Shown piece by piece: positions 2,381 to 63,925 of a stretch of 64,000 bases of DNA. The stretch's first letter is position 1. The number at the start of each line of letters is the position of its first letter. Source of the stretch: Commensalibacter nepenthis (GTDB lineage: Bacteria; Pseudomonadota; Alphaproteobacteria; Acetobacterales; Acetobacteraceae); NCBI RefSeq assembly GCF_029953305.1, contig NZ_JASBAN010000001.1, forward strand, positions 1,853,001 to 1,917,000. The letters are read 5' to 3'. A program made the position numbers and the translations under genes. The notes below the pieces were generated by a model. It was not told where the DNA came from. It was given only the letters and a program-made list of their open reading frames with translations, and did not search any database.

Positions 2381-3652
2381 ATGGATGAGTTAGACTTTGC
2401 TCCTTTGCTGCAAGAGGAGTTTAATCAATATATTGATCCTTTGGGACCATGGGGAGAGGATACAGAAAATACTCCTCCCGTAGCGATCGCTGTTTCAGGG
2501 GGGGCAGATAGTTTGTGCCTTGCGTTGCTGGCTTCTAGATGGCGTAGAAATATCTATGCGTTTATTGTCGATCATCAATTGCGGGCATCTTCTGGGCAAG
2601 AAGCAATGATTACTCAAAGATGCCTATCCAATTTATCTATTCCATCTAAAATTTTAACGCTAAATAATTTGAATGCAGGCGCTGCTTTAGAGGAGCGTGC
2701 AAGAATAGCCAGATATGATGCGTTATTTGAAGCTTGTTCCCAAAAAGGCTGTGTTGATTTATTGCTTGGGCACCATGCTGGGGATCAAGCCGAAACAGTC
2801 TTAATGCGTATTCGTGCGGGTAGTGCTGCAGATGGCTTGGCAGGTATGGCACTGATTATGGATTTACCTAATATAAGGTTAGTCAGACCATTATTATCTG
2901 TATCCCCACAACGATTACGTGCAACCCTTAAAAAAGAAAACATGTCTTGGGTAGAGGACCCATCAAACCAGGATATGCATATTCGACGGAATCAATTACG
3001 AAAAGAACTATCTACAAGCTCGAAAAAATCTGGTGTGATCTCTACTTTGTTACGGCGTTCTCGTGAAGAAGGACGCAATCGCATGAGCAAGGATAAAGAA
3101 CAAGCAGATTTATTGGTTCGGCAAGTTGAGGTAAGACCAGAAGGATTCGCACTTTTATCAGTAAAAACAATGACTCCTAGAGCCTTGGGGGCGGTTATTC
3201 GAACAATTTCAGGTTCTGTTTATGCACCAGTATCGCAGTCATTGGAGCGGTTGCGTCATTTACGTTCTATGACTGTTGGTGGTGTTAAAATACAACCTGC
3301 AGGACGGTTAGGCGATGGATGGTTAATGTTGCGTGAGGAAGCTGTCATGCAACAAAGAATAAAAATTGTTCCAGATTGTATTTGGGATCAACGTTTTCGT
3401 GTTGTGATTCCTGAGGGACAAATGAAAGACGGAATAGAGGTTGGCGCTTTGGGGGATGGATATAAACAATTTGCCAATCGTAATACATTTCCTTCGGCGT
3501 TATTAAGGGTATTACCCGCTTTTTGGAATGGTGAAACTTTAATTGCAGTACCGTATTTAGACGTATTTTTACAAGATCATGTTAAAAATTGGCGAATTAT
3601 TTTTCAGCCTAAACAACCAATGACACAAAGTTATCTTTTTTTAGGTATATAA
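2381..3652 (+). CDS. tilS: tRNA(Ile)-lysidine synthase TilS
   Basis: Converts C34 of the tRNA-Ile CAU anticodon to lysidine using ATP, allowing AUA decoding. The 423-residue product has the PP-loop ATP-pyrophosphatase signature SGGADS at residues 39-44 and the family motifs VDHQLRASSGQEA, EERARIARYDAL and LGHHAGDQAETVLMR. The C-terminal part is divergent and AT-rich, as is usual in alphaproteobacteria. It sits between cpoB and ftsH, the order seen in many alphaproteobacteria. A 186-base gap precedes ftsH. Confidence 0.95.
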   Translation: MDELDFAPLLQEEFNQYIDPLGPWGEDTENTPPVAIAVSGGADSLCLALLASRWRRNIYAFIVDHQLRASSGQEAMITQRCLSNLSIPSKILTLNNLNAGAALEERARIARYDALFEACSQKGCVDLLLGHHAGDQAETVLMRIRAGSAADGLAGMALIMDLPNIRLVRPLLSVSPQRLRATLKKENMSWVEDPSNQDMHIRRNQLRKELSTSSKKSGVISTLLRRSREEGRNRMSKDKEQADLLVRQVEVRPEGFALLSVKTMTPRALGAVIRTISGSVYAPVSQSLERLRHLRSMTVGGVKIQPAGRLGDGWLMLREEAVMQQRIKIVPDCIWDQRFRVVIPEGQMKDGIEVGALGDGYKQFANRNTFPSALLRVLPAFWNGETLIAVPYLDVFLQDHVKNWRIIFQPKQPMTQSYLFLGI

Positions 3653-3838
3653 CCAAGGTAATAAGTTTTAATGTAATGAATTAAAATGAGGAAAAATAAT
3701 TTTTGTGACTAGGAAAAAATCAGTTTAGTCCTTATGTTAAATAAGTAATAGTAATAATAAAACAAAATAATTTTCATTTTGTTTAAGGGATTTGTAAAAC
3801 AAGACGTGTTTGTTTTGAACATGGAAATATAAAAGAGT

Positions 3839-5806
3839 ATGAACAAAAAGAATTTTGGCCGTAATTTAAGTTTATGGGTTGTTGTGATCGTGATGGTCAT
3901 GCTGGCTGCTGGATTTTTCCGTCCAGATACAGCGCAAACTACTGGGGAACAAGTTAATTATTCACAGTTCATCAGTAATATCGATCAAGGAAAAGTTAAA
4001 TCTGTCGTTATTCAAGATCGTAATTTAAGCGGTAAATATAAGGACGACAAGACTTTTACCACCTATTTGCCGCCCTCTACGAATGATTTGCTTGCAAAAC
4101 TATCAAGTAAAGATGTCTCTATCGAAGCAAAACCATTGGATAATCAACCCAATTTATTTTGGCGTTTGATTATTAATTTGCTTCCGACTTTGTTGATTAT
4201 TGGGCTGTTTATTTTACTGATGCGCAATATGCAAGGTGCTGGTGGTAAAGCCATGGGATTTGGAAAATCCAAAGCCAAAATGTTGACCGAGAAGCAAGGT
4301 CGAGTCACATTTGCAGACGTTGCGGGTATTGATGAAGCCAAAGCTGAGTTAGAGGAAATTGTTGAGTATTTAAAAGATTCTCAAAAATTCCAACGTTTGG
4401 GTGGTAAAATCCCTAAAGGGGTTTTGTTGGTTGGACCTCCTGGAACAGGTAAAACATTATTGGCACGTGCTATTGCTGGTGAAGCAAATGTTCCATTCTT
4501 TACAATTTCAGGTTCAGACTTTGTTGAGATGTTTGTAGGGGTCGGGGCTTCTCGTGTTCGTGATATGTTTGAGCAAGGGAAAAAAGCTGCACCTTGTATT
4601 ATTTTTATCGATGAAATTGATGCTGTCGGTCGTCATCGTGGTGTCGGCATGGGTGGTGGAAACGATGAGCGTGAACAAACATTGAACCAAATGTTGGTAG
4701 AGATGGATGGGTTTGATAGTAGCGAAAGCGTTATTTTGATTGCTGCAACAAACCGTCCAGATGTTCTTGATCCTGCATTGTTGCGTCCTGGGCGTTTTGA
4801 CCGTCAAGTGGTTGTTCCAAATCCTGATGTTGCCGGGCGTGAAAAGATTTTGCGTGTGCATATGCGTAAAGTCCCCGTCACAAGTGATGTTGATCCAAAA
4901 GTAATTGCCAGAGGTACTCCAGGTTTTTCCGGTGCAGATCTTGCAAACCTAGTCAATGAAGCGGCTTTGTTGGCAGCACGTTTAAATCGTCGCACCGTTT
5001 CGATGCTCGAGTTTGAAAATGCCAAAGATAAAGTCATGATGGGTGCAGAGCGTCGCTCGTTGGTGATGAGTGATGAAGAGAAAAGAAATACGGCTTATCA
5101 TGAAGCAGGACATGCGCTTTGTGCGCTATTAATTCCTGGCTGTGATCCTGTGCATAAAGCTACCATTATTCCTCGTGGTCGTGCGTTGGGAATGGTGATG
5201 AGTTTGCCTGAAGGGGATCGCTATTCTGAAACCAAGTTAAGGTGTAAGGCTCGTCTTGTCTTGGCGATGGGCGGACGTTGTGGTGAAGAGCTGGCTTTTG
5301 GTTCTGAAAATATTACCAGTGGCGCGTCAAGTGATATTCAAATGGCAACAAACCTTGCCCATAATATGGTGACTGAATGGGGAATGAGTGAAAAGCTCGG
5401 TATGGTCAATTATGGTGATGGTGAGCAAGGTTATTGGCAAAAACCAAGCAAATCAGGGTTGACTATTCGAGAAATTGAAATTGAAGTGAAACAATTGATC
5501 GATGAAGCCTATACCCGTGCCATGAATTTGTTGACTGAACATAGGGAAAAATGGGAGCGCCTAGCCGAAGGATTGTTAGAATATGAAACATTAAACGCCG
5601 ATGAAATCCAACGTGTTTTACGTGGTGAAAAAATAGAGCGTAGTTTTGTAGACGATACAACAAAAAATCTTCGGTCATCTGTTCCTGAAATTGCACCTAC
5701 GGAAGAAATAGAGACTTCATCTGAAAAAAAACAGACAGAAGATGATCATAAAGAAACATCTTTGAAGCTGGATAAATCAGAAGATAAAACAGATCCAACA
5801 GCGTAG
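3839..5806 (+). CDS. ftsH: ATP-dependent zinc metalloprotease FtsH
   Basis: Inner-membrane AAA+ protease that degrades unassembled membrane proteins and regulators such as LpxC. The 655-residue product has an N-terminal TM segment (about 10-27), a small periplasmic domain, a second TM (about 105-123), the AAA module with Walker A GPPGTGKT (199-206) and Walker B IIFIDEID, and the zinc site HEAGH (421-425). The C-terminal tail is long, charged and probably disordered (Glu/Lys/Thr-rich). The ATG at 3839 follows AAAAGAG. A strong hairpin lies downstream. Length and motifs are those of the family. Confidence 0.98.
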
Positions 5807-5832
5807 TTTGTTGAATAATTAAACAAAGTGTT

Positions 5833-5860
5833 AAAGTGAAAGAAGAAATTCTTTCACTTT
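5833..5860 (+). terminator. Rho-independent terminator after ftsH
   Basis: Perfect 12-bp stem AAAGTGAAAGAA / TTCTTTCACTTT with loop GAAA (5845-5848), followed by TTTATAT, 27 bases after the ftsH stop. Confidence 0.88.
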
Positions 5861-5909
5861 TTTATATATAGGCTTGGCGAAATAATGATTTCTTCATAGT
5901 AGATAAGGA

Positions 5910-6932
5910 ATGCAAGATAATTTATTTTTAGAGCCAATGGCGTTTTTATATGATGATGTTGCTGAGCAAGCGATATATAAAAAGCATGCCTATCCTTTTT
6001 TGGGTCAGCAAAACCTAGCGTTTTCAATGGTAAGGCAAATCAGTGATTGTCAAAATCATCCTGCTTTGTCGACGGATTTATTTCCAACAATATGGCAACA
6101 ACAAATAAATCGGTTATCATCTCCATTACCGATGGCGGGTTTGCCTGCTGGTCCGTTAGTTATGGGAATATTAAATATTACCCCAGATAGTTTCAGTGAT
6201 GGTGGTAAGTATTATCAACTTAATGATGCTGTTTGTGCAGGTCATCAAATGGTAAAAGATGGCGCTGCGATTATTGATATTGGTGGTGAAAGCACCCGAC
6301 CAGGATCTATTCCAATAACACCGCAAGAGGAGTGTGAGCGCATCTTGCCAGTCATTAAGCAATTGCAAGGATGCGGTGCTTTGATCTCGGTGGATACACG
6401 GCACGCCCAAACCATGTATTATGCGTTAGAGGCTGGTGCAAATATTATTAATGATATTTCAGCCTTAGATGATCCTGAGAGCGCAAAGATTATAGCACAA
6501 GCAAAATGCCCAGTGATTTTGATGCATATGCGTGGAACGCCCCAGACAATGGGAAATCATGCAACTTATGATAACGTTGTTTATGTTGTGTTGTCAGAGC
6601 TTAGTAATAAGATTCAGAAAGCAGAGCAAGCTGGGGTTTTACGGAATCAAATTATCATTGATCCAGGTATTGGGTTTGCAAAAAATCAACAGCATAATTT
6701 GTTATTAATAAAGCATTTTTCAGTTTTCGCAAATTTAGGGTGTCGTTTATTATTGGCGGTATCAAGAAAACGATTTATTAAAGAGATTATGAGTAATATC
6801 GATTCTGACCATTATGATTGGGGAACTATGGTGGCCTCATTACCTTTTATGATGGTTGGCAATGGGATTATTCGAGTGCATAATGTACCGGCAATGGTAC
6901 AGACAATGAAAATATGGCAAGCTTTACATTAA
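5910..6932 (+). CDS. folP: Dihydropteroate synthase
   Basis: Condenses 6-hydroxymethyl-dihydropterin pyrophosphate with p-aminobenzoate in folate synthesis; this is the sulfonamide target. The 340-residue product shows the Pterin-binding signatures MGILNITPDSFSDGG (from about residue 86), DIGGESTRPGS, and a late SRKRFI motif. It carries about 80 residues before the TIM barrel, longer than the E. coli enzyme; such extensions are common in Acetobacteraceae and Rhodospirillales. The ATG at 5910 follows ATAAGGA. glmM follows after a short gap, a widespread folP-glmM pairing. Confidence 0.95.
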   Translation: MQDNLFLEPMAFLYDDVAEQAIYKKHAYPFLGQQNLAFSMVRQISDCQNHPALSTDLFPTIWQQQINRLSSPLPMAGLPAGPLVMGILNITPDSFSDGGKYYQLNDAVCAGHQMVKDGAAIIDIGGESTRPGSIPITPQEECERILPVIKQLQGCGALISVDTRHAQTMYYALEAGANIINDISALDDPESAKIIAQAKCPVILMHMRGTPQTMGNHATYDNVVYVVLSELSNKIQKAEQAGVLRNQIIIDPGIGFAKNQQHNLLLIKHFSVFANLGCRLLLAVSRKRFIKEIMSNIDSDHYDWGTMVASLPFMMVGNGIIRVHNVPAMVQTMKIWQALH

Positions 6933-6980
6933 AATAACAAAGCAAAGCGGCTGTAAAAACAAACAACCTTGGAAAGACAG

Positions 6981-8342
6981 ATGAGTAATCAAAGAGTTTT
7001 TTTTGGAACTGATGGAATTCGTGGCACTGCAAATAGTAACCCAATGACTGTAGAGGTTGCACAAAAGCTGGGGCAAGCGGTTGGTTTGTTATTTAAAAAT
7101 GAAGGCGATCAAAGGCGTCATCAGGTCTTGATCGGCAAAGATACACGTTTATCAGGCTATATGATTGAAAGTGCATTGATTGCAGGATTTTTATCCGCAG
7201 GAATCGATGTAATTGTGGTTGGACCAATGCCCACACCTGCGATTGCCATGTTGACACGGTCATTGCGTGCTGATTTAGGGGTTATGATTTCAGCGTCACA
7301 TAATCCTTATTATGATAATGGTATCAAGATTTTTGATCGTGACGGGTTTAAGCTCTCTGATGCGCAGGAAATTGAAATTGAACGATTAATACAATCCGAC
7401 CTTTCCCATCGTTTAGCTGGTCCTGAACAGATAGGGAGAGCCGTTCGTTTGGATGATGCCGCAGGACGTTATATTGAACATGCAAAGGCTTCTTTCCCAA
7501 GACAATATCGTCTTAATGGATTGAAAATTGTCATTGATTGTGCGAATGGCGCAGCATATAAAGTTGCCCCCGCAGCATTGTGGGAATTAGGAGCAGAAGT
7601 CATTTCTTTGGGATGTAAACCAAATGGATTTAACATTAATGACAAATGTGGTTCCACGCATCCAGAGGTTTTGTGCCAAGCCGTTATAGAGCATCAAGCG
7701 GATATTGGTATTGCGCTTGATGGTGACGCTGATCGAATGTTGTTGATTGATGAGACTGGAAAAGTTCTTGATGGCGATCAAATTCTTGCGGTGATTGCCT
7801 CCTCTTGGGCTGCCAAAGGTTATTTGCCAAACAAACATGTCGTTGCTACTATCATGTCAAATATGGGCTTGGAACGCTTTTTAAAATCTCAAAATCTTGA
7901 ACTGTTAAGAACGCAGGTGGGTGATCGTTATGTTGTCGAAAAAATGCGTGAGCTGGGATGTATTATTGGTGGGGAACAATCTGGACATATGATTTTGTCT
8001 AATTTTTCCACAACAGGCGATGGGCTGATTGCTGCATTACAAGTATTGGCTGTTTTAGTTGAAAGAAAACAAAAAGCCAGCGTTGTTTGTAATATGTTTT
8101 CCCCATTTCCTCAGGAATTAAGAAACATACGGTTTCAAGGGAATGATCCATTAACACATGAAAATGTTCAAAAAGCGTTGAAAGAAGCAGAAAAGGAATT
8201 GGGCAAGGACGGTCGTATTATTTTAAGGAAAAGTGGCACTGAACCTTTGATACGAGTGATGGCAGAGGCAGAGGATTATGCGAGTGTTGACCGTATCCTA
8301 ACACAACTATGTGGGGTTATTCACGACGTGAAGGATTGCTAG
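6981..8342 (+). CDS. glmM: Phosphoglucosamine mutase GlmM
   Basis: Interconverts glucosamine-6-phosphate and glucosamine-1-phosphate on the route to UDP-GlcNAc, for peptidoglycan and LPS. The product begins [18 protein letters not shown]. It has the phosphoserine loop [14 protein letters not shown] (catalytic Ser near residue 106), the metal loop DGDADR and the sugar-binding GGEQSGH. I chose ATG 6981, about 453 residues, because it has a GGAAAG ribosome site 5-10 bases upstream; an in-frame TTG at 6969 is less likely. Its TAG stop shares the palindrome CTAG with the stop of the opposing gene. Confidence 0.96.
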
Positions 8343-54622: not shown

Positions 54623-55035
54623 AATTTAGTTTCCACAAAATAATTGAAAATTATACAATAATTAACTGTTTTACGATGGGTGTTCGGTAATGATTGATTG
54701 AGTTAAACATCAGAATTTATAGAACTACATGTAAACAGACAAATGTGATTTTCTCTTTAAATCACAAAATCTTTACCCCTTCCTTATCCTAATTCTACAA
54801 AGGACGTAAAGTCTTATTTTAGATATTCAGGGATGTATTTCACATTATTTTTAAATGTTTATTATATATGCAACAAAAATTGCTTATTAATTTCAAAAAA
54901 GAATAATCAATTATATTATAATTGTTTTACAGCCAAGTTATTAATTTTAATTATCTAAAGCAATCTTGCTCTTGTTTGTTTTATTTGTTCTGCTATCCTA
55001 CTCATTATTCATATAAGGAAGGATGTATATATATT
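54623..55035. other. Gene-free region upstream of the repeat protein
   Basis: 413 AT-rich bases between divergent genes. The reading frame of the next gene extends back to 54922, but that part is Cys/Tyr/Phe-rich and precedes the signal peptide, so it is treated as untranslated. Near the right end lies AAGGAAGGA. No RNA or repeat is seen. Confidence 0.45.
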
Positions 55036-55470
55036 ATGCGGTTAAGTTTTCTCAATAAAACAACATTAGGCATGGCTGTTGCTGGAACTGTATTATTGCT
55101 ATCAACATCTAACGTTATGGCAAAAGGTCAGATCTATAATAATGTCGGTAAAGAAGTTGGGCATATTGATAACCAAGGAAATATTTACGACAATATCAGC
55201 GGCTTTAAAGGACGTTTACAACAAGATGGCTCTGTATTTGGATCTGATAATCAATTAGTTGGACGTGTGGATAACAAAGGTTCAATTTTTGATAAGAATA
55301 ATGTCCAAGTAGGACAATATGATGCATCCAATGGAAATATTTATGATGCACATCGTCAAATTATCGGGCATTTGCAAAAAGACGGTAATGTGTATGCACC
55401 AGATTCTTCCTTGATTGGAAAAGTTGATCCAGGAAATATCATTGGTGCAATTATGTTATTAAAACATTAA
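55036..55470 (+). CDS. Secreted tandem beta-repeat protein
   Basis: 144 residues. A signal peptide (MRLSFLNKTTLGMAVAGTVL; cleavage likely after NVMA) is followed by about five repeats of 18-20 residues with the pattern G-x-I/V-Y/F-D/G-x(5-7)-h-V/I-G-x-h-x-x-x-G: GQIYNNVGKEVGHIDNQG, GNIYDNISGFKGRLQQDG, GSVFGSDNQLVGRVDNKG, GSIFDKNNVQVGQYD, GNIYDAHRQIIGHLQKDG, then a last partial unit. The regularity suggests a small beta-propeller, beta-flower or beta-helix fold. No Cys in the mature part. Function unknown; a periplasmic or surface role is inferred from the signal peptide. Confidence 0.72.
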   Translation: MRLSFLNKTTLGMAVAGTVLLLSTSNVMAKGQIYNNVGKEVGHIDNQGNIYDNISGFKGRLQQDGSVFGSDNQLVGRVDNKGSIFDKNNVQVGQYDASNGNIYDAHRQIIGHLQKDGNVYAPDSSLIGKVDPGNIIGAIMLLKH

Positions 55471-55498: not shown

Positions 55499-56260
55499 CT
55501 ATCCCTTTACTATAAAAGTCGCTGTGGGTAGGCTGAAATTATGATTTTCTTTGAATTTTAATATTGATTTTACATGAGCTGGGGCTACTCGTTGCAGTTC
55601 AATAATAGCTTGAACACAATTCATAGAAGGTTTGGTTCTGTTGATCCAGCCATTAAACTCTAAATCCAACTCTCGTTGTGTAATAGAATGTAACGTAAAT
55701 CCATGAATAGCAAATAGTTGGGTATATTCTGCGATATTATAATTTCTGACGTGTGAGTGGTCTCTTAATAATTCGATTGTTTGTAAAAAGCTGTCTGCGG
55801 TTTTATCCAAAGGGGCGATTGTATCGATGATAATTACCGTGCCATTTGGGTGAAGTACGCGTTTGATTTCTGCAATTCCTTGTGCCAAATTGTGCCAGTG
55901 ATGGCTACTAAAACGGCTAATTACCCAGTCAAATTGGTGATCTTTAAAAGGTAACTGCTCTGCGGGTGCTTTTTGGGTTGTGATGTTGTTTAAGGCTTTT
56001 TCTTGAGCGGTTTGTAATACGGCATCCAACATGGTTTGACTGATATCACAAGCCACAACTTCTTTTACCAAAGGTGCAGCACAATAGCTGACATGTCCAC
56101 CACCACATCCTAAATCTAATAAAGAGGCTTTATTTTCGTTTTTTAGTAACTCTTTAATTTGTTCGAGGTCTGGTCCAAACGCATGGACTTGGCTGGTAAC
56201 ATACTGTTTTGCACGAGGGTTATAGCTTTGTGCAACATAGTCTTGAGGGATGTTCATCAT
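55499..56260 (-). CDS. Class I SAM-dependent methyltransferase (UbiE/Methyltransf_11-like)
   Basis: About 253 residues. SAM-binding motif I is LLDLGCGGGHVSYCAA, motif II region VVACDISQTML, then APAEQLPFKDHQFDWVISRFSSHHW and LHPNGTVIIID. Resembles small-molecule or ubiquinone-type methyltransferases; the substrate is unknown. ATG 56260 (GGAT nine bases upstream) or 56257 is preferred over TTG 56275. It starts 21 bases downstream of the fructosamine kinase gene on the same strand, so the three genes 57564-55499 may be one operon. Confidence 0.87.
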   Translation of the reverse strand: MMNIPQDYVAQSYNPRAKQYVTSQVHAFGPDLEQIKELLKNENKASLLDLGCGGGHVSYCAAPLVKEVVACDISQTMLDAVLQTAQEKALNNITTQKAPAEQLPFKDHQFDWVISRFSSHHWHNLAQGIAEIKRVLHPNGTVIIIDTIAPLDKTADSFLQTIELLRDHSHVRNYNIAEYTQLFAIHGFTLHSITQRELDLEFNGWINRTKPSMNCVQAIIELQRVAPAHVKSILKFKENHNFSLPTATFIVKG

Positions 56261-56281
56261 CAGTAAAATATCCAAAAGAAG

Positions 56282-57094
56282 TTATATTTTTAAACGGGTT
56301 AATAAGGTTTGGATCATATCAACATAATAATTGCCAAACAGAATATAATGGACAATCGCTGGAAAGAGTTGATAGACCGGTAAACGTTCTTGCCAGTTGG
56401 GTTCCAAGAGGGAATAGCTGTTATAAAAAGCGTCCGGTGGGCTACCAAAAATATTTAACATAGCAATATCAACTTCGTTATGACCAAAGTAACATGCTGG
56501 ATCAATCAAATAGGGTCGATTGATATGGGTAATGATATTACCAGACCATAAATCCCCATGTAACAAAGATATAGGGGGATGCTCGGGAATATAATGATCT
56601 AAGTTTGTCGTTAATTTTTCAATTTGGACAGCAATATGGATAGGTAATTGATCAATATAGCATAATAAACGATTTTCTCGCCAAAACTCGACCCAATTAT
56701 TGCTAAAGCTATTTTTAAGTGGCACTTTCCCGAACCCATAATCTTCTTGCCATCCATAAGAAGGGTTGTGGATTTGGTGTAATTGATTCAGAGTCAATCC
56801 AAGATTTTGCCAAGCCTCTTTGGATAAGCAATTGGTTTCTTGGATAGCTTCCATAATTAAAAGCGTATCATTTGCAAAAATTACTTTTGGAACATCAATA
56901 TGATGCTGATCTAGAAATTTCAGCATATTGCCCTCAGTGTTGGGCGATGCACCATTTTTGATAACATAATTTTGCTCCGCGCTGGTGGTAATCATGAATG
57001 TTTCAGAAAGATCGCCCTGTGTCAAAGGTTGCGTATTCTCTATTTTATTTTCAAGATATTGTTCTGCGACTTGAATTAATGAAATTTTATTCAT
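56282..57094 (-). CDS. Fructosamine kinase family protein
   Basis: Phosphorylates sugar adducts (fructosamines or, in most bacteria, ribulosamines/erythrulosamines) on glycated proteins as a first step of deglycation. The 270-residue product has the aminoglycoside-kinase-like catalytic site LLHGDLWSGNIITH, the metal motif LIDPACYFGHNEVDIAML and the N-terminal nucleotide segment LTQGDLSETFMI. Its start overlaps the stop of the LMW phosphatase gene by 4 bases. That pairing supports a joint role in protein repair. Confidence 0.92.
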   Translation of the reverse strand: MNKISLIQVAEQYLENKIENTQPLTQGDLSETFMITTSAEQNYVIKNGASPNTEGNMLKFLDQHHIDVPKVIFANDTLLIMEAIQETNCLSKEAWQNLGLTLNQLHQIHNPSYGWQEDYGFGKVPLKNSFSNNWVEFWRENRLLCYIDQLPIHIAVQIEKLTTNLDHYIPEHPPISLLHGDLWSGNIITHINRPYLIDPACYFGHNEVDIAMLNIFGSPPDAFYNSYSLLEPNWQERLPVYQLFPAIVHYILFGNYYVDMIQTLLTRLKI

Positions 57095-57564
57095 AGTTTT
57101 TTCTCAAAATAATCAGCCAAACCAACAACACCCAAATAAACTTGATTCCAAGTTGTTTCGAAATCGAGTTGATCTCCATAATAAGGATCAGCGATTTCTT
57201 GTCCTTTATGGGTCATAGAGTAATCCATTAACAAAGATATTTTGTGAAGACATTCTGGCGGGGCTATTTTTTTTAATTGATGAATATTTCTATGATCCAT
57301 ACCGATAATATGGGTAAAACTTACAAAATCCTCTAGTTGAATTTGTCGTCCACGATAGGTATTAATATCAATATTATGGCGTGCAGTTTCTTTGATTGCC
57401 CGATTATCAGGTGGATTATCGATGTGCCATGAACCAAGCCCAGCAGAATCAACTTTGATGTGTAGGTGTCGCTTTTGAATTTCACTTGTAAAGGCTGCTT
57501 GTGCCATCGGAGAGCGACAAATATTGCCAAGACAAACGAATAATACAGAAAAAGAAGAGTGCAT
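57091..57564 (-). CDS. Low-molecular-weight protein-tyrosine phosphatase
   Basis: 157-residue LMW-PTP. The P-loop CLGNICRS has nucleophile Cys11 and Arg17, and the general acid Asp is in IADPYYGD. ATG 57564 (GGAT upstream) gives the family length; in-frame ATGs at 57597 and 57576 add a non-conserved leader. It overlaps the fructosamine kinase gene by ATGA. LMW-PTPs encoded beside fructosamine-kinase homologues are thought to dephosphorylate protein-bound ribulosamine-5-phosphate, so the target may be glycated protein rather than phosphotyrosine. Confidence 0.92.
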   Translation of the reverse strand: MHSSFSVLFVCLGNICRSPMAQAAFTSEIQKRHLHIKVDSAGLGSWHIDNPPDNRAIKETARHNIDINTYRGRQIQLEDFVSFTHIIGMDHRNIHQLKKIAPPECLHKISLLMDYSMTHKGQEIADPYYGDQLDFETTWNQVYLGVVGLADYFEKKL

Positions 57565-57860
57565 TTTATGATCCATATATAGGCTGAGGGTAATCATTGA
57601 AAATGATAGGCGCTTATTTTTGAATAAGTAATAACTTAATCATATATAACAGAATGATAAAAAAATTATTGAAATTCAATGATAATTATAAGCTTGAATT
57701 ATTGGGATGTTGAAATTTAATATAATTATAGATATAAATAATGGGTATATTTGTATACTATAATTAATTTGATCGGTTTAATTAGTTTTAAAATAATATT
57801 ATTTAATGATTATTTTACGGATGAGAAAGCCTTTTATTTATTAGCTGTGGGGAATTTTAA

Positions 57861-60311
57861 GTGCCTGCTGGTGAAATTGTTGATCCAACCAAGGATTCAG
57901 TAAATCGTTTCTGGCGTTTATTTTTACGGATAGGCGTTCCTATTTTGGGCGTGATTTTGGTTGTTTTCGTTGTTGTAGGGGTAACGTTACATTCCTATCG
58001 TCAAACCAAATCTGGAATTTTAAAACTTACCCACATTATTTTAAAAACTGAACAGTCACGTGTATCTCAAGAGGTTATGAGTTACCTTTCCCCTGCGACG
58101 GTCAGCAGCAAATTGGTTGTTGATATGCTTTCTCATATTCCTTCTGAATATGAAACAGGGATGTTTTATACATATGTGATGAGCAGCTTGCGTCAAACAA
58201 AACAGTTACAATCATTTTACCTTGCTGACGAAAAAGGTAACTTTACGATGATTGAACGTATTGTTGATAATCCCAATAAGGTGAGGATAGTCACCTTAAA
58301 ACCAGATCAGAATGGAGGACAATTTTTAGAGGAGTTCTCTACGTTCGATGGTAAAAAAATATCCAGAACATCACGCCCAGCCAATGCTTATGATCCTCGT
58401 TTACGGTCTTGGTATGAGCAAGCTATGAAAAATGGTAAATTAACATGGTCTCGACCTTCGTTAATGCCGTCTAAAAAAGGGTTAGTGATTACAGCCTCAA
58501 TCCCATTTCAAGATCGAGACGGTAAAAAGGGCGTTTTCGCAGTTAGTATTTCCTTGCAGCAATTAACGACGTTTTTAAGTTCATTAAATATCAGCCAGCA
58601 TGCCAGAGCCATTATTGTGGATCGTCAAAAGAATATTATTGCGTCACCAGGGTTGTTAATGCAATTTGGTGATAATGAGTGGAACTCGGAAGCAAGCAAG
58701 ATTAATCCAAAATTTAGCCCCGTTATTGCACGTGCATATGATCAATTTTTGGTCGATGGAATTGGTGTTCGTTCATTTAAAATTAAAAAAGATGAACAAA
58801 CGAGTCATGACAAGGATACGCCTTTATCCTCTTCACTCGAATCTATTGCTGGAAATTATATTAGTATCACGTCACAACTTCCTGAATCCGTTCAAAGTTG
58901 GGTAGTTTTGATCGTTATTCCAGAAAGTGACTTTTCCAATTTTGCGGTTACGAGTGGTAAGCAAAATTTACTGTTTTCATTATTGGTAGTTGCTCTTGCT
59001 GCGGCGATGGCAGGTGTGTTGATCTATCAAGGTCACAGAATGGATCGATTATGGAAACGGTTTAAATATGTTCAAAATATTGCCGAGCAAGAAAATAATG
59101 CGATTGAGATGATTGCGTCTAAGTCAGAGATATTTGATCCTAATAATGAAGCCTTAATTTTAACAGAAGGGCTGTGTAATCTGGTTTCTGCGAAAAGGGT
59201 CAGTGTTTGGCATATTTCAGAAAGTCAGAAGTCATTAATTTGTAATGATCTATATAATAGCGAGGATGGGAATCATGCTGAAGGTGTACAATATTCTATC
59301 CAAGAAGTCCCAGATTTCTATAAAGCGATTACGGAAGGTGAGACTCTTGAAATAGAAGATGCTGTTAATGATGGTCGTATTTCGAATTTTTATAGATCGT
59401 TCATGCGCTCTGCGGAGACAAAATCTGTATTGATTACACCAGTCCTTGGAAAAGATGGCGTTATCGGAGCCGTCATCATCGAGGACACGCCACATCTTCA
59501 TAATATCCGTCATATTACCAAGATTTTTGCAGGTTTGGTTGCTATGCGTTTCGTTGCTGCAGAAATCCAGCTAAAAGAATTAAATCTTGTTGGTGGTGAG
59601 ACTGAGAAAAGCCATGCGACTTCTATAGAGAAAATTACTCATGATGTTCAAGATAGTTTATCAACCTTGTCAAATGAAGCGAAAACAGAGTTTCTGGTTA
59701 AACCTGGTGCTGTAAAATATCATAATTTTGATTTTGGTGATTTGAGTGAAGATGAACAACAAGGTATTTATCCAGCCGTTGCTGTGATGAACATCACTTT
59801 TAGTGGTTACTTAACTTCTGATATTGAGGAATCTTCGAAATTGGTGACGCCAATACGTGAATTGGTCATTGTTTTACAAGATATTGCTAAGAAATATGGT
59901 CTTTTCTATGTAAAAATTATGGGTGGTCATTTAGTTGCTGTTGCGGGATGCATGAAAGAGCCTGATATTACCGCACCGATTCGATTGGCACATGCCGCAT
60001 TGGATATGCGAGCAGCTTGTATCGAAATGATTCCTGGGATGGGAACCGAATCTAATTTTGGTATTGGAATAGATGTGGGACCTGTTTTGGGATCGTGGTT
60101 TGGTAAAGAGCCCAGAACATTTAATTTATGGGGACCAGCCGTCGGAATGTCGGGGTTAATGGCAAATATGGCAACTGATGGCAGCGCAGTACAAGTGACT
60201 CAAAGTGCTTATATGGCTCTTAAAAATGACTTTTTATTCAGACCAAGAGGAACTTTTTATATTCCAAAGGTTGGTATTTCACATACATTTATTCTTGCTG
60301 GTAGACGATGA
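57861..60311 (+). CDS. dCache-GAF sensor with degenerate class III cyclase domain
   Basis: 816 residues. TM1 (about 21-44) and TM2 (about 369-389) enclose a periplasmic dCache-like sensor domain (YDPRLRSWYEQAMKNGKLTW is a dCache hallmark). A cytoplasmic GAF-like domain (about 420-575) and a class III nucleotide cyclase fold (about 635-815) follow. The cyclase has lost its chemistry: first metal Asp is Asn (VMNITFSGY), second is Gly (KIMGGHLVAVAG), and the VNxAxR motif reads VGMSGLM. It probably acts as a nucleotide or protein-binding regulator. It starts at GTG 57861 with TGGGGA upstream and is coupled by ATGA to the MlaE-like gene. Confidence 0.82.
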   Translation: MPAGEIVDPTKDSVNRFWRLFLRIGVPILGVILVVFVVVGVTLHSYRQTKSGILKLTHIILKTEQSRVSQEVMSYLSPATVSSKLVVDMLSHIPSEYETGMFYTYVMSSLRQTKQLQSFYLADEKGNFTMIERIVDNPNKVRIVTLKPDQNGGQFLEEFSTFDGKKISRTSRPANAYDPRLRSWYEQAMKNGKLTWSRPSLMPSKKGLVITASIPFQDRDGKKGVFAVSISLQQLTTFLSSLNISQHARAIIVDRQKNIIASPGLLMQFGDNEWNSEASKINPKFSPVIARAYDQFLVDGIGVRSFKIKKDEQTSHDKDTPLSSSLESIAGNYISITSQLPESVQSWVVLIVIPESDFSNFAVTSGKQNLLFSLLVVALAAAMAGVLIYQGHRMDRLWKRFKYVQNIAEQENNAIEMIASKSEIFDPNNEALILTEGLCNLVSAKRVSVWHISESQKSLICNDLYNSEDGNHAEGVQYSIQEVPDFYKAITEGETLEIEDAVNDGRISNFYRSFMRSAETKSVLITPVLGKDGVIGAVIIEDTPHLHNIRHITKIFAGLVAMRFVAAEIQLKELNLVGGETEKSHATSIEKITHDVQDSLSTLSNEAKTEFLVKPGAVKYHNFDFGDLSEDEQQGIYPAVAVMNITFSGYLTSDIEESSKLVTPIRELVIVLQDIAKKYGLFYVKIMGGHLVAVAGCMKEPDITAPIRLAHAALDMRAACIEMIPGMGTESNFGIGIDVGPVLGSWFGKEPRTFNLWGPAVGMSGLMANMATDGSAVQVTQSAYMALKNDFLFRPRGTFYIPKVGISHTFILAGRR

Positions 60312-61327
60312 AATATTCAGATGATTTTGAAAATAATCCTTTGGAAAAAAAGGAAAAACAAAATCGAATAGAAGCAATGCTATCTGATTTGGATAAAGAT
60401 GGTATCAACGATCTCGATCAATATGTTGAAGATATTCGTAACCGCGAGATCGATCAGGCACAACGTCTGTCTGTTCAATTAAAAATGGTCAAGGACGGTC
60501 GTTTTGCGTGGTTGCAAAAAATTGGAATTATTCTTTTTTGGTATTCGTGCCCAATATTATATGCTATTGGTGCAAAAACTCGCAGTTATTTTAGATTTTT
60601 ACTTGGGGTGCTAGCCGCATCATGGGGAGTGTTGGTCGAAAGTATTTCGCCGATCACTTGGCGTCGCACGGTAAAATATGAATTCAAAAGATCGTTGGGT
60701 CAAGTTGTTTGCGGAGGCTTTTTTAGCACCTTTTTTATAGCAACATTGGCTGGACTAGCTGTGGTATCTCAGGCAATTTTTTGGCTGGGTGCGGCTGGGT
60801 TGACCAAGATGACAGGACCGATCTTAATCACGATTTTAGTCAGAGAAGTAGCTCCTATCCTAGTTGGAATGATTTTATTGGGACGTAATGGTATTTTGAC
60901 CGTTACAGAATGTAGTCTGTTGGCTATGGGCGGGCAGCTCAAATCATTGACAGTCATGGGGATTGATCCTTTTATTACGATTGTCTTACCTAGGGTATGG
61001 GCTTTTACAATCGGTAGTTTTACTTTGGGAATGATTTTTGGTACGACTTCATTATTTATGGGGTATGTTGTTACCTATGCTTTGGGAACGATGCAGGATT
61101 CTATCTGGACTTTTTATAGCAATATTTTGGCAGCAATGTCTGTGGCTGATTACGTTTTGGTTCCTTTGAAATTTATTATTATGGGATTTATGATTGGGGT
61201 TGGCTCTTGTATTACGGGTATGAACGTGAAGGTGAATGATGAACCATCAACGTTATTGCCCAAAGGGTTTACACGTGGAATCATGTTAATCATGGTGGTT
61301 AATATTTTGTTTACGTTGGATTTTTAA
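60308..61327 (+). CDS. MlaE-family ABC permease with N-terminal extension
   Basis: 339 residues. The MlaE core (about 105-339) shows FFIATLAGLAVVSQAIFWLG, TILVREVAPILVGMILLGRNG, ALGVMGIDP-like SLTVMGIDPFITIVLPRVWAF and C-terminal TM helices. This class moves phospholipids between outer and inner membranes with MlaF and MlaD. About 90 extra residues precede the core, mostly charged (DLDKDGINDLDQYVEDIRNRE, calcium-loop-like) plus one hydrophobic stretch. It starts inside the stop of the sensor gene (ATGA) and ends 3 bases before the pseudo-ATPase gene. Confidence 0.87.
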   Translation: MKYSDDFENNPLEKKEKQNRIEAMLSDLDKDGINDLDQYVEDIRNREIDQAQRLSVQLKMVKDGRFAWLQKIGIILFWYSCPILYAIGAKTRSYFRFLLGVLAASWGVLVESISPITWRRTVKYEFKRSLGQVVCGGFFSTFFIATLAGLAVVSQAIFWLGAAGLTKMTGPILITILVREVAPILVGMILLGRNGILTVTECSLLAMGGQLKSLTVMGIDPFITIVLPRVWAFTIGSFTLGMIFGTTSLFMGYVVTYALGTMQDSIWTFYSNILAAMSVADYVLVPLKFIIMGFMIGVGSCITGMNVKVNDEPSTLLPKGFTRGIMLIMVVNILFTLDF

Positions 61328-61330
61328 AAA

Positions 61331-62023
61331 ATGGCAAATAAAATATTACTAGATATCCATGAGGCAAAACCTTCGTTTGATGAAAATTATTTGCCGCCTG
61401 TTACTTTTAATTTAAAGGTAAAATCAGGTGAATGCGTGATTATTGAATCACGAGATCCGGAAACTGCAACCGCTTTTGCTGATTTATGTAGCGGTATGAT
61501 TGCTTTGAGAGAAGGTAAAGCTTTATTCAAAGGCTTAGATTGGTTTGAGTTAAAAGAACCACGATTATCCGCATTGCGGGGATCTATTGGTCGGGTTTTT
61601 CAAAAAAACGGATGGATGGAAATGTATTCCGTTGCCGTGAATATTTTATTGCCTTCATTGCATCATACCCGAATTCATGAAGATAAATTGGTTGATCAAG
61701 CGATGATACTTTGTCATAAATTTGGATTGCCAGGATTGCCTATGGATACATCGAGAGAAGTAACAATGATTGACCTAGCTCGTGCATCATGTGTGCGTGC
61801 TTTGTTAAATAATCCAGATTTGTTATTATTAGAATATCCAGCAGAGGGTTCTTCTGCTGAACTGATGCCTCCTTTGTTGGAGATGTTGAATGTTGCTCAA
61901 AATAGAGGGGCGAGTATCATTTGTTTTACACGTCAATTTAGTTTGTGGAATGATTATAAAGATCGTGTAACGCATTGGATGCGTTTACAAGAAAAAGGTT
62001 TAACCTCAATACGGCTGGGATGA
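61331..62023 (+). CDS. ABC ATPase-like pseudoenzyme (MlaF position)
   Basis: 230 residues with the overall fold and spacing of an MlaF-type ABC ATPase: start of domain LKVKSGECVIIE, Q-loop-like GRVFQKNGWMEMYSVAVNILLP, then PDLLLLEYPAEGSS. Every catalytic motif is lost. Walker A is SRDPETAT (residues 40-47) instead of GxxxxGKS, the LSGGQ position reads EVTMIDLARA, Walker B DE is EY, and the H-loop is FTRQ. The frame is intact and coupled on both sides, so this is a maintained pseudo-ATPase rather than decay (inference). It lies between the MlaE-like and MCE genes. Confidence 0.8.
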   Translation: MANKILLDIHEAKPSFDENYLPPVTFNLKVKSGECVIIESRDPETATAFADLCSGMIALREGKALFKGLDWFELKEPRLSALRGSIGRVFQKNGWMEMYSVAVNILLPSLHHTRIHEDKLVDQAMILCHKFGLPGLPMDTSREVTMIDLARASCVRALLNNPDLLLLEYPAEGSSAELMPPLLEMLNVAQNRGASIICFTRQFSLWNDYKDRVTHWMRLQEKGLTSIRLG

Positions 62024-62024
62024 A

Positions 62025-63002
62025 ATGTTTAACAGTAAACAATATACGAAAACACGACAATTATTTCAGTTAAGATATGCCAATGAATGGACAGGTGGAT
62101 TGGTGTTATTATGCCTGTTGGCTTTTGTCGGAGCCGTGATTGAGGCAGGTGTGTTAAGAGACTGGATGACACCCGCAGCAGAGTTAAATATTGTTTTGCC
62201 CCAAACTGGGGTGGATAATTTATCTGTTGGGGATAATGTCGAGGTTTTTGGGATTAGTGCGGGAACTATTAAGAAGATTAATGTTAATCCTGATGGTGGG
62301 CTATCCGCTGTTGCTGCGATTGATCCGAAATTAACCACTTTTATTCGACGCGATAGCCAAGCAACTATCAAAAGACAGTTTGCGGTTGCTGGGGCGGCAT
62401 ATGTATCAATTACACGGGGATATAGTACAAAACTTGATTGGAAATATGCAGTATTGGTGGCGAAAACAGAGCCTAATCCTGCGGATCAGATTTCTCAAAT
62501 GGTCATGCAGATTCATGAACGCATCGTTCCAACAATGGATAGTGCGAAGAATATGATGGCTTCTTTGGAAATGATTGTTGAAAATATTCAACAGGGTAAA
62601 GGGTCTATTGGTCAGCTTGTGAATAATGATGAATTGATACGTCGTGCCGAAAATATGGTTCAGACATTGAATAATATCATTGAACAATTACAACCGATCG
62701 AAAATAATTTGAATAAAGTTGTAACCCACGCAGATACAATGGTCGTTAATTTTGGTAAAGTTTCCAAAAATATTGCGCAGGCTTCACCAAGCTTGGTTCC
62801 TATTGCTAAAAATTTAGTTCCAATTAGTAAGAATGTAAAAGATTCTACAGAGCAATTACCTGCAATGATGACGCAATTACAATCTACTGTTGCTGATTTA
62901 CAGAAGTTAATTGTTCAAGTTAAAGGATTGTGGCTATTGGGGGGGAATGGAAAAGAGCCTCGCCGTTCAAAACGCTTGCCAGCACGTGAGGTCAGACCAT
63001 GA
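62025..63002 (+). CDS. MCE/MlaD-family substrate-binding protein
   Basis: 325 residues. One N-terminal TM (about 24-44) is followed by the MCE domain (about 52-132: LNIVLPQTGVDNLSVGDNVEVFGISAG; FIRRDSQATIKRQFAVAGAAYVSI). A long helical C-terminal region with phase-repeating Asn/Ile/Val (about 160-300) resembles the needle-forming helices of longer MCE proteins. The C-terminus is basic (EPRRSKRLPAREVRP). It would sit in the inner membrane with the MCE ring in the periplasm. It starts 1 base after the pseudo-ATPase stop and overlaps the lipoprotein gene by ATGA. Confidence 0.9.
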   Translation: MFNSKQYTKTRQLFQLRYANEWTGGLVLLCLLAFVGAVIEAGVLRDWMTPAAELNIVLPQTGVDNLSVGDNVEVFGISAGTIKKINVNPDGGLSAVAAIDPKLTTFIRRDSQATIKRQFAVAGAAYVSITRGYSTKLDWKYAVLVAKTEPNPADQISQMVMQIHERIVPTMDSAKNMMASLEMIVENIQQGKGSIGQLVNNDELIRRAENMVQTLNNIIEQLQPIENNLNKVVTHADTMVVNFGKVSKNIAQASPSLVPIAKNLVPISKNVKDSTEQLPAMMTQLQSTVADLQKLIVQVKGLWLLGGNGKEPRRSKRLPAREVRP

Positions 63003-63925
63003 GGTTTTTTTATAAAAATTGTGCATTATTCGTACCGGTCCTTATAGGATTGGCTGCTTGTGGTGGTGGACAAGAGCCTGATCCTGTGCGGGATGATCCT
63101 TTTGATCGCACGATGAATGTTGCGGATGAGGCGGTTTTTTATGATCGTTTGCAACAAGCTGAAACCAGTTATCAAAAATCTTTTGACTATGCGATTACCA
63201 GTGATGACGCAGCGAATATCAATGATGCGGGTTATAATTTAGCTATTATTCAACTTGGATTGAATAATGTACAAGATGCATTAAAAACTGTGGCAAAAAC
63301 CAGTAACGAGCTGAAAATTCGAAGACAAGAAAACAGCCCTCAATTAGAGTTGATAAGTGCTGCTATATTTTATCGTATGAATCGGTTTTTAGACGCCGCT
63401 TTGGCAGCAAAGCAAGCGGAGAAAAGCAAAGATGAAGATATCCAAGAACGTGCGTATTTTTTATCAGCTTTGATTGCAAATGATGAAAATAATTTAAATG
63501 AGGTTGCTCAGTATTCTCAAAAATTAGATCAACTTTTATCGCAAAGCAAAGCTAAAATAGAAGAGAGTTGGAAAGCGGATCAAAAAGAATTACATGCTTT
63601 GCTAGCTTACAAACAAGGGGAATTTGATCAAGCTATGACCAACGCCAAAGAGGCGCAAGACATTCGTCGTAACCAAGTCGAATATCGTGCAATGGTCAGG
63701 ACATTGGCGTTGCAAGGATTGATTAGTGAAGGTGAAAAAAACTTTATTTCAGCGGCACAATTTTATGTCAGAGCTGGAAAAAGTGCATTATTACTGAAAG
63801 ATTATGCAGAGGCAAAAAAATATTTAGATCGTGCAGCTGGCCTTCATGCTGATCAATTAACATATCAATTAGCGTCTGATGCTTTGATTGATTTGGGGAA
63901 AAAAACAAAGAAAACATCAGAGTAA
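62999..63925 (+). CDS. TPR-type lipoprotein of the MCE operon
   Basis: 308 residues. The signal peptide ends in lipobox GLAAC, so Cys near residue 21 is the predicted lipid anchor, followed by GGGQEPDP. The rest is all-helical with TPR-like pairs (ANINDAGYNLAIIQLGLNNVQDA; AYFLSALIANDENNLNEV; AQFYVRAGKSALLLKDYAEAKKYLDRAAG). No enzymatic motif is visible. Position and coupling suggest it is the outer-membrane or periplasmic partner of the MCE protein, like the lipoproteins of Pqi, Let or Mla-type systems (inference). Confidence 0.78.
   Translation: MRFFYKNCALFVPVLIGLAACGGGQEPDPVRDDPFDRTMNVADEAVFYDRLQQAETSYQKSFDYAITSDDAANINDAGYNLAIIQLGLNNVQDALKTVAKTSNELKIRRQENSPQLELISAAIFYRMNRFLDAALAAKQAEKSKDEDIQERAYFLSALIANDENNLNEVAQYSQKLDQLLSQSKAKIEESWKADQKELHALLAYKQGEFDQAMTNAKEAQDIRRNQVEYRAMVRTLALQGLISEGEKNFISAAQFYVRAGKSALLLKDYAEAKKYLDRAAGLHADQLTYQLASDALIDLGKKTKKTSE

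Follow-up and report, generated by a model that had tools for sequence, protein, structure and literature searches.

We analysed a window of 64,000 nucleotides from the genome of Commensalibacter nepenthis, a member of the Acetobacteraceae (contig NZ_JASBAN010000001.1, positions 1,853,001 to 1,917,000 of the forward strand; window positions are counted from its first letter), and in it an operon of five open reading frames (ORFs), all on the + strand, that we name S (sensor, 57861-60311), P (permease, 60308-61327), A (ABC-like protein, 61331-62023), M (MCE protein, 62025-63002) and T (lipoprotein, 62999-63925). A first-pass annotation of the sequence had described a five-gene operon with spacings of -4, 3, 1 and -4 bases in the order S-P-A-M-T, and the ORF positions agree with it. 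S, which has a GTG start, encodes a membrane sensor of 816 residues in which Pfam matches delimit a periplasmic Cache domain (dCache_1, residues 121-285, 58221-58715), a GAF domain (residues 434-562, 59160-59546) and a C-terminal class III cyclase-like domain that lacks catalytic residues (Guanylate_cyc, residues 655-812, 59823-60296). P is an MlaE-type permease of 339 residues, and A is a protein of 230 residues with the fold of an ABC nucleotide-binding domain (NBD) in which functional Walker A, signature, Walker B and H-loop motifs are absent. M (325 residues) has an N-terminal membrane helix, one MCE domain and ~150 residues of predicted helix, and T is a lipoprotein with its lipobox Cys at residue 21 and weak tetratricopeptide repeat (TPR) matches. 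A scan for promoters and terminators returned 28 promoter-like sites (22.8 expected) and 8 sites resembling terminators (4.4 expected), and was not used as evidence.

The AlphaFold2 model of A (mean pLDDT 92.8) matches the nucleotide-binding domains of LolD, FtsE, MacB and MlaF with TM values of ~0.8, which assigns it to the ABC fold. In sequence, A scores 18.5 bits against Pfam ABC_tran, below the cut-off of 25, and the 25 NCBIfam matches listed, of which FtsE is the best and ranks above MlaF, are all below cut-off too. Furthermore, E. coli MlaF gives A a lower score than FtsE, LolD, MacB and BceA do, so that it need not descend from MlaF itself. Its Commensalibacter homologues are 90% (C. 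communis), 82% (C. intestini) and 63% (C. melissae) identical to it. We aligned 71 distinct orthologues, that is, those of the 72 fetched loci except the truncated gene of locus L061, to both MlaF-type ATPases that the genome encodes (L068 and L069), whose motifs are intact by eye. Compared with these two ATPases, the A of the window keeps only the Q-loop Gln and, in a Walker A that lacks its Lys, the Ser/Thr position (as Thr). Across the orthologues, the Walker A Lys is found in 0/71 and its Ser/Thr in 34/71, while the first, second and third Gly of the P-loop are kept in 4/71, 1/71 and 0/71, and a helix begins in the model at residue 43, that is, at the expected P-loop site. The Q-loop Gln is present in 22/71, the signature Ser in 43/71, and the two signature Gly in 2/71 and 4/71 (both together in 0/71). 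In Walker B, the Asp is kept in 2/71 and the Glu in 9/71 (the pair in 0/71), the Asp position being occupied by Glu in 67/71; the D-loop Asp is found in 1/71 and the H-loop His in 2/71. No aligned protein keeps more than four of the 13 canonical positions scored. Other residues are held firmly: G33, G55, G62, W71, R83, G87, P134, G135, P137, D148, R156 and A157 are invariant in 44 aligned sequences. A thus does not have the residues of a catalytically competent ABC ATPase such as MlaF and, as judged from alignment and structural model, is a family-wide pseudoenzyme that retains the ABC fold.

The cyclase domain of S presents a comparable picture. When S of the window is aligned to solved class III cyclases, G, P, G and L are found at the positions of the second metal Asp and of the substrate Asp, Asn and Arg, and the Lys is kept; these are the roles that we take the residues to have. 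Five of the six positions were set by this alignment, and the first metal Asp was placed by its motif. The tally covers 63 S proteins, as L041 and L061 were dropped, six loci have no S and one further locus, L121, carries an uninformative fragment of eight residues (64 reduced to 63). None of the six canonical residues is kept in 18 of them, one in 34, two in nine and three in two, and every one of the residues is retained by itself in some proteins, the substrate Lys in 25 of 63, the second metal Asp in five and the first metal Asp in two. A complete cyclase site is present in 0/63, as are both metal Asp together, so S does not qualify as an active class III nucleotide cyclase, and its cyclase domain is, by this alignment, a pseudoenzyme across the family. 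No active class III partner for S was found in the genome, in which the PF00211 search matched S alone. Among 190 genomes sampled from the class, one from outside the family (G235) has a full-length S adjoining its A, and five others match S at E <= 1e-40 in the dCache part only. The cyclase motifs of one of these five (L134) are intact by eye, and S is therefore plausibly derived from an active sensor cyclase. The proposal of an MCE operon around two pseudoenzymes is hence borne out by the absence of the Walker A Lys from all 71 A proteins and of a complete cyclase site from all 63 informative S proteins; the search for relatives with intact motifs, which would have pointed to local decay, returned none.

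P matches PF02405 (MlaE) with an E value of 1.4e-30 and 106.9 bits (cut-off 22.5), which places it in the MlaE family of permeases; its match to TIGR00056 falls below the cut-off of that model. Core positions of MlaE are kept, R179 and E180 in 64/67 and 66/67 sequences and G192, R193 and G195 of the G-R-x-G motif in 66/67, 67/67 and 66/67. M matches PF02470 (MlaD) with 41.7 bits (cut-off 25.1), and an MCE protein is hence encoded together with the permease. As M has a single MCE match and P is of the MlaE family, the pair differs from the combination of a PqiA/LetA-type protein with a multi-MCE protein. The model of M contains a membrane helix (residues 6-41), the MCE fold (~50-148) and helices at 152-189, 202-253, 261-275 and 278-304, and its best structural matches are Mce1 chains, followed by MlaD. 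The annotation of T as a TPR lipoprotein held in its second part: the lipobox Cys is invariant in 45/45 aligned T proteins (that of the window and 44 from a list of 54, with starts picked by a simple rule). Its Pfam TPR matches are all below cut-off, and the TPR nature of T is weakly supported. No STAS match was detected by Pfam in any of the five proteins of the window, so that the operon has no recognizable MlaB.

To follow the operon in relatives, we recorded gene order from tblastn matches at E <= 1e-3, a count that includes broken copies and does not require intact frames. The order S-P-A-M-T was found on one strand in 60/72 fetched loci, which answers the question, raised by the first-pass annotation, of whether relatives share it and goes far beyond chance. 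The other 12 loci comprise six P-A-M-T, five S-P-A-M and one S-P-A. Four of the five S-P-A-M loci end at the end or start of a contig, and in the fifth (L121) the frame of M is broken and T is short. In the sole S-P-A locus (L110, 4854-10001) no match to M or T is present in the next 4 kb, where other frames are found. The block persists while its flanks vary between clades, the largest flank cluster being shared by at most 20/72 loci.

Selection was estimated from the ratio of nonsynonymous to synonymous substitution rates (dN/dS, NG86 method), the values being approximate because dS is high (0.6-1.9). Against C. communis and C. intestini, respectively, dN/dS is 0.057 and 0.094 for S, 0.024 and 0.090 for P, 0.082 and 0.089 for A, 0.014 and 0.053 for M, and 0.057 and 0.085 for T. 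Against C. melissae it is 0.155 for S, 0.039 for M and 0.256 for T, dS not being computable for P and A. Purifying selection thus acts on all five genes within the genus, the two pseudoenzymes included.

A profile of A (E <= 1e-30) detects the protein in 136/397 Acetobacteraceae genomes and 38/102 genera, one of the copies (G126) being truncated. Among the 385 genomes of a class sample, two from outside the family match A at ~1e-71, and the next matches, at 5e-23 or weaker, are taken to be ordinary ABC proteins; in a phylum sample that overlaps the class sample, A is found in 5/398 genomes, four of them in the family and the fifth being G235. Two loci labelled as outside the family, L107 (G550) and L108 (G235), carry the full operon. 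In the tree, L107 falls with L053 of the Acetobacteraceae (support 1.0), a placement that points to horizontal transfer or to a problem with the labels.

S and A travel together to a great extent. In a sample of 200 genomes, 61/61 genomes that bear A also have S (E <= 1e-60), and three have S without A, each of these S being a fragment that runs off the start of a contig. The exception is one genus (g95), in which six A-bearing genomes carry P-A-M-T with no S beside the operon (in one of them, L115, the contig stops inside P). A search of these six whole genomes detected no S; the same query found S in 4/4 genomes of related genera and missed it again in the two genomes of the genus tested. 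In a tree of P, A and M from 63 loci (L041, L061, L062, L083, L115, L118, L120 and L121 being omitted because frames were broken, ends cut or contigs short, and L110 because it has no M), the five loci of this genus are nested among S-bearing lineages, with a support of 0.98 for their grouping with L049, L109, L117 and L119. From this position in the tree, S was probably lost there. The A of the S-less genomes is still degenerate, and three of its positions, D51, R88 and V155 in window numbering, are conserved in at least 85% of the 65 sequences from outside the genus and changed in its six (for V155, in five of these); 4 of the 65 have lost R88 too. As a single clade stands behind this pattern, we take it as a hint of a possible S contact on A. 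In another genus, all operon genes of L061 (G126, 3053-7050) are broken into short frames, and those of a congener species (L052, G046) are intact; this is apparently a recent loss of the operon as one unit.

The genome holds other systems of this kind. An MlaE-MlaF pair (L068) has ATPase motifs that are intact by eye, and an MlaE-MlaF-MCE-lipoprotein operon (L069, 3199-6690, - strand), similar to Mpc of Brucella, encodes an ATPase in which P-loop, LSGG and DEP are all intact. Also present are a frame of 571 residues with three MCE matches and two more proteins with a single MCE each. The operon of the window is therefore an addition to, rather than the sole, envelope lipid system. A screen for a hidden ATPase, based on a P-loop and an LSGG-like motif, was passed by 3/1544 ORFs in the flanks of 71 loci, flanks that range from almost nothing to several kb. 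Two of the three are ABC-like and lie next to each other at L060, on the - strand upstream of S and ~0.1 and ~0.9 kb away from it, with intact P-loop and LSGGQ; the third (L050) is not ABC-like by eye. Before the operon, the window contains a small repeat protein that matches the beta-flower families of Pfam (54922-55470, +) and genes for a methyltransferase, a protein of the fructosamine-kinase family and a low-molecular-weight phosphatase (55499-57597, -). The kinase and phosphatase clusters are found upstream of the operon in seven Commensalibacter loci each and at no other locus. At L071 (3428-9237), two genes downstream of the operon resemble opgG and opgH (periplasmic glucan) by eye. The genome also contains a squalene-hopene cyclase match, which makes a hopanoid cargo no more than a lead.

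Comparison with known systems places the operon among the MCE/MlaE transporters as a variant. MlaFEDB of E. coli, which transports lipids across the envelope, likewise has an MlaE-type permease, an ABC-fold protein and an MCE protein encoded together. The window block differs from it in having neither a STAS match nor an MlaC-like gene, in adding a sensor and a lipoprotein, and in the long predicted helical tail of M. Above all, MlaF is an active ATPase according to the available part of its description (PMC7367683), unlike A, which has no catalytic residues in 71/71 orthologues. The Mpc system of Brucella abortus and L069 are alphaproteobacterial MCE systems that also combine MlaE, an ABC protein, an MCE protein and an outer-membrane partner. 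However, the ATPase of L069 keeps P-loop, LSGG and DEP, none of which is found in the operon of the window, where a sensor is added; and Mpc, in the portion of the source available (PMC12436622), combines the ABC ATPase MpcF with a fusion of STAS and MlaE, in contrast to a P without STAS and an A without ATPase motifs.

Other MCE systems resemble the operon in single traits. The inner-membrane proteins of PqiABC and LetAB are not MlaE-type. These systems have no ABC subunit, unlike the operon of the window, which keeps an MlaE permease and an ABC fold whose chemistry is lost. They share with it the lack of a working ATPase, PqiA and LetA having no ATPase domain in the accessible text (PMC12436622), so that ATPase-free MCE systems have a precedent, and PqiABC also has an outer-membrane lipoprotein. 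In the MlaEFD of Veillonella and in mycobacterial Mce1, the MCE protein has a long helical extension, as predicted for M, and a trans-envelope conduit has been proposed or shown. Mycobacterial MceG is an active ATPase, and to our knowledge neither of the two systems has a pseudo-cyclase sensor. As far as the available part of its description goes, Veillonella has a system that lacks MlaB, with an MlaF homologue that closely resembles those of model diderms, contrary to A (PMC10665443). S itself is like the alphaproteobacterial dCache class III adenylate cyclases in its periplasmic dCache and C-terminal cyclase fold, and unlike them in its lost catalytic residues, its GAF domain and its linkage to transporter genes; the text available to us of PMC5561183 contains no mention of adenylate cyclase or Cache. 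No description of the S-P-A-M-T operon was found among the matches listed in the open-access literature without bioRxiv, although one may exist; nor did this search return a published characterization, which the first-pass annotation had named as a finding that would refute it.

In E. coli, MlaF K47A and E170Q do not complement, according to the part of the source available (PMC7367683), and the S-P-A-M-T machine hence cannot operate as MlaFEDB does unless its motor is borrowed. The reading that we favour, with a probability of about 0.5, is that of a conserved MCE envelope complex with a regulatory pseudo-NBD, acting as a sensor-gated conduit in which ATP is not hydrolysed by A. P and six copies of M would together make up a conduit that leads from the inner toward the outer membrane, at which T would serve as docking partner; a long helical tail is predicted for M, and a tail of this type builds the periplasmic needle of Mce1. 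A dimer of A would take the site of MlaF at the cytoplasmic face of P, as a regulatory clamp and not as a motor. The dCache of S may sense a periplasmic ligand, and the signal would reach A or P by way of the GAF domain and a dimer of the pseudo-cyclase, so that the conduit opens or closes. A lipid, or some other hydrophobic compound, would then travel along its own gradient, or a source other than ATP hydrolysis in A would drive it. Since P-A-M-T persists without S in one genus, S would be an optional modulator of P-A-M-T and not its source of power. The earlier suggestion of an energy-free channel gated by the sensor thus survives as the best explanation in its ATP-independent part, gating being conjectural and S not obligatory.

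Several observations weigh against this reading. Confidence in the tail of M is low, with block means of 44-63 from residue 171 onward. New intramembrane charges, which would have suggested coupling to the proton motive force, were sought by eye in P (67 sequences against the two MlaE of the same genome), with nothing distinctive found. The distribution of the operon is patchy (38/102 genera), and its loss at L061 indicates that it is dispensable in that species. Finally, S-P-A without adjoining M and T at L110 misfits a conduit to which M is obligate, unless this copy is decaying.

A rather unlikely alternative, also put forward by the first-pass annotation, is that the motor is borrowed, A being an assembly or regulatory subunit while an intact MlaF or an MpcF-like protein hydrolyses ATP, in a mixed NBD dimer or by exchange with A. 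The two intact MlaF-type ATPases of the genome speak for it, and other transporters offer well-known examples of half-degenerate ABC dimers. However, in those dimers the partner site is completed by an intact signature from the inactive half, and A has lost this element too, as the signature Gly pair is found in none of its 71 sequences; neither composite site would be complete in a mixed dimer, and a 1:1 dimer of A with active MlaF looks unlikely on these grounds. Furthermore, ABC-type flank ORFs lie beside only 1/71 loci (L060), and A is short (230 residues against 265 for MlaF of the same genome), which fits a missing C-terminal extension, the element used in the handshake of the MlaF dimer according to the accessible part of PMC7367683. 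The proposal is therefore weakened, at least for a 1:1 stoichiometry.

It is distinctly unlikely that the complex is sensory or structural, with P-A-M as a trans-envelope strut or a sensor of lipid state whose output is signalled through S, and no bulk movement of lipid. The almost constant co-occurrence of S and A, the make-up of S, a membrane sensor whose intracellular domain is of an output type, and the S-P-A arrangement of L110 would fit such a function. But S has no working cyclase site, the six genomes with P-A-M-T and no S would be odd if S were the output, and between the two closest Commensalibacter species it is M and P that are under the strongest constraint (dN/dS of 0.014 and 0.024).

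That A is an unorthodox enzyme, binding a nucleotide or another ligand at a remodelled site and still driving a cycle, seems improbable. The change of the Walker B Asp to Glu in nearly all orthologues is specific rather than random, and A has strongly conserved residues that are absent from MlaF (such as W71, R83, P134, P137 and H112); against this, the phosphate-binding elements are gone, with both the Walker A Lys and the third P-loop Gly at 0/71, and a helix starts where the P-loop should be. Local pseudogene decay in this strain is rejected: the breakage of the operon in one genome of another genus (G126, L061) tells us that loss is possible, but the motif loss is common to 71/71 A and 63/63 informative S, and the five frames of the window are open and under purifying selection.

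Returning to the sensor-gated conduit, we tentatively propose a history for it, with less confidence than in the complex itself: an MlaE-type ABC lipid transporter may have become, early in the history of much of the Acetobacteraceae, a trans-envelope conduit for lipid that is gated by a ligand and independent of ATP, its ABC dimer turning into an allosteric clamp and a dead cyclase coupling the periplasmic sensor to that clamp. How MCE systems are energized, and in which direction they move lipids, is an open question, and an MlaE system with a dead ATPase would let ATP-free movement of lipid through MlaE and MCE proteins be tested directly, in acetic acid bacteria that carry the operon and are genetically usable. 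If true, the operon would clearly exemplify an ABC domain that a whole family retains as a regulatory pseudoenzyme, paired with a pseudo-cyclase.

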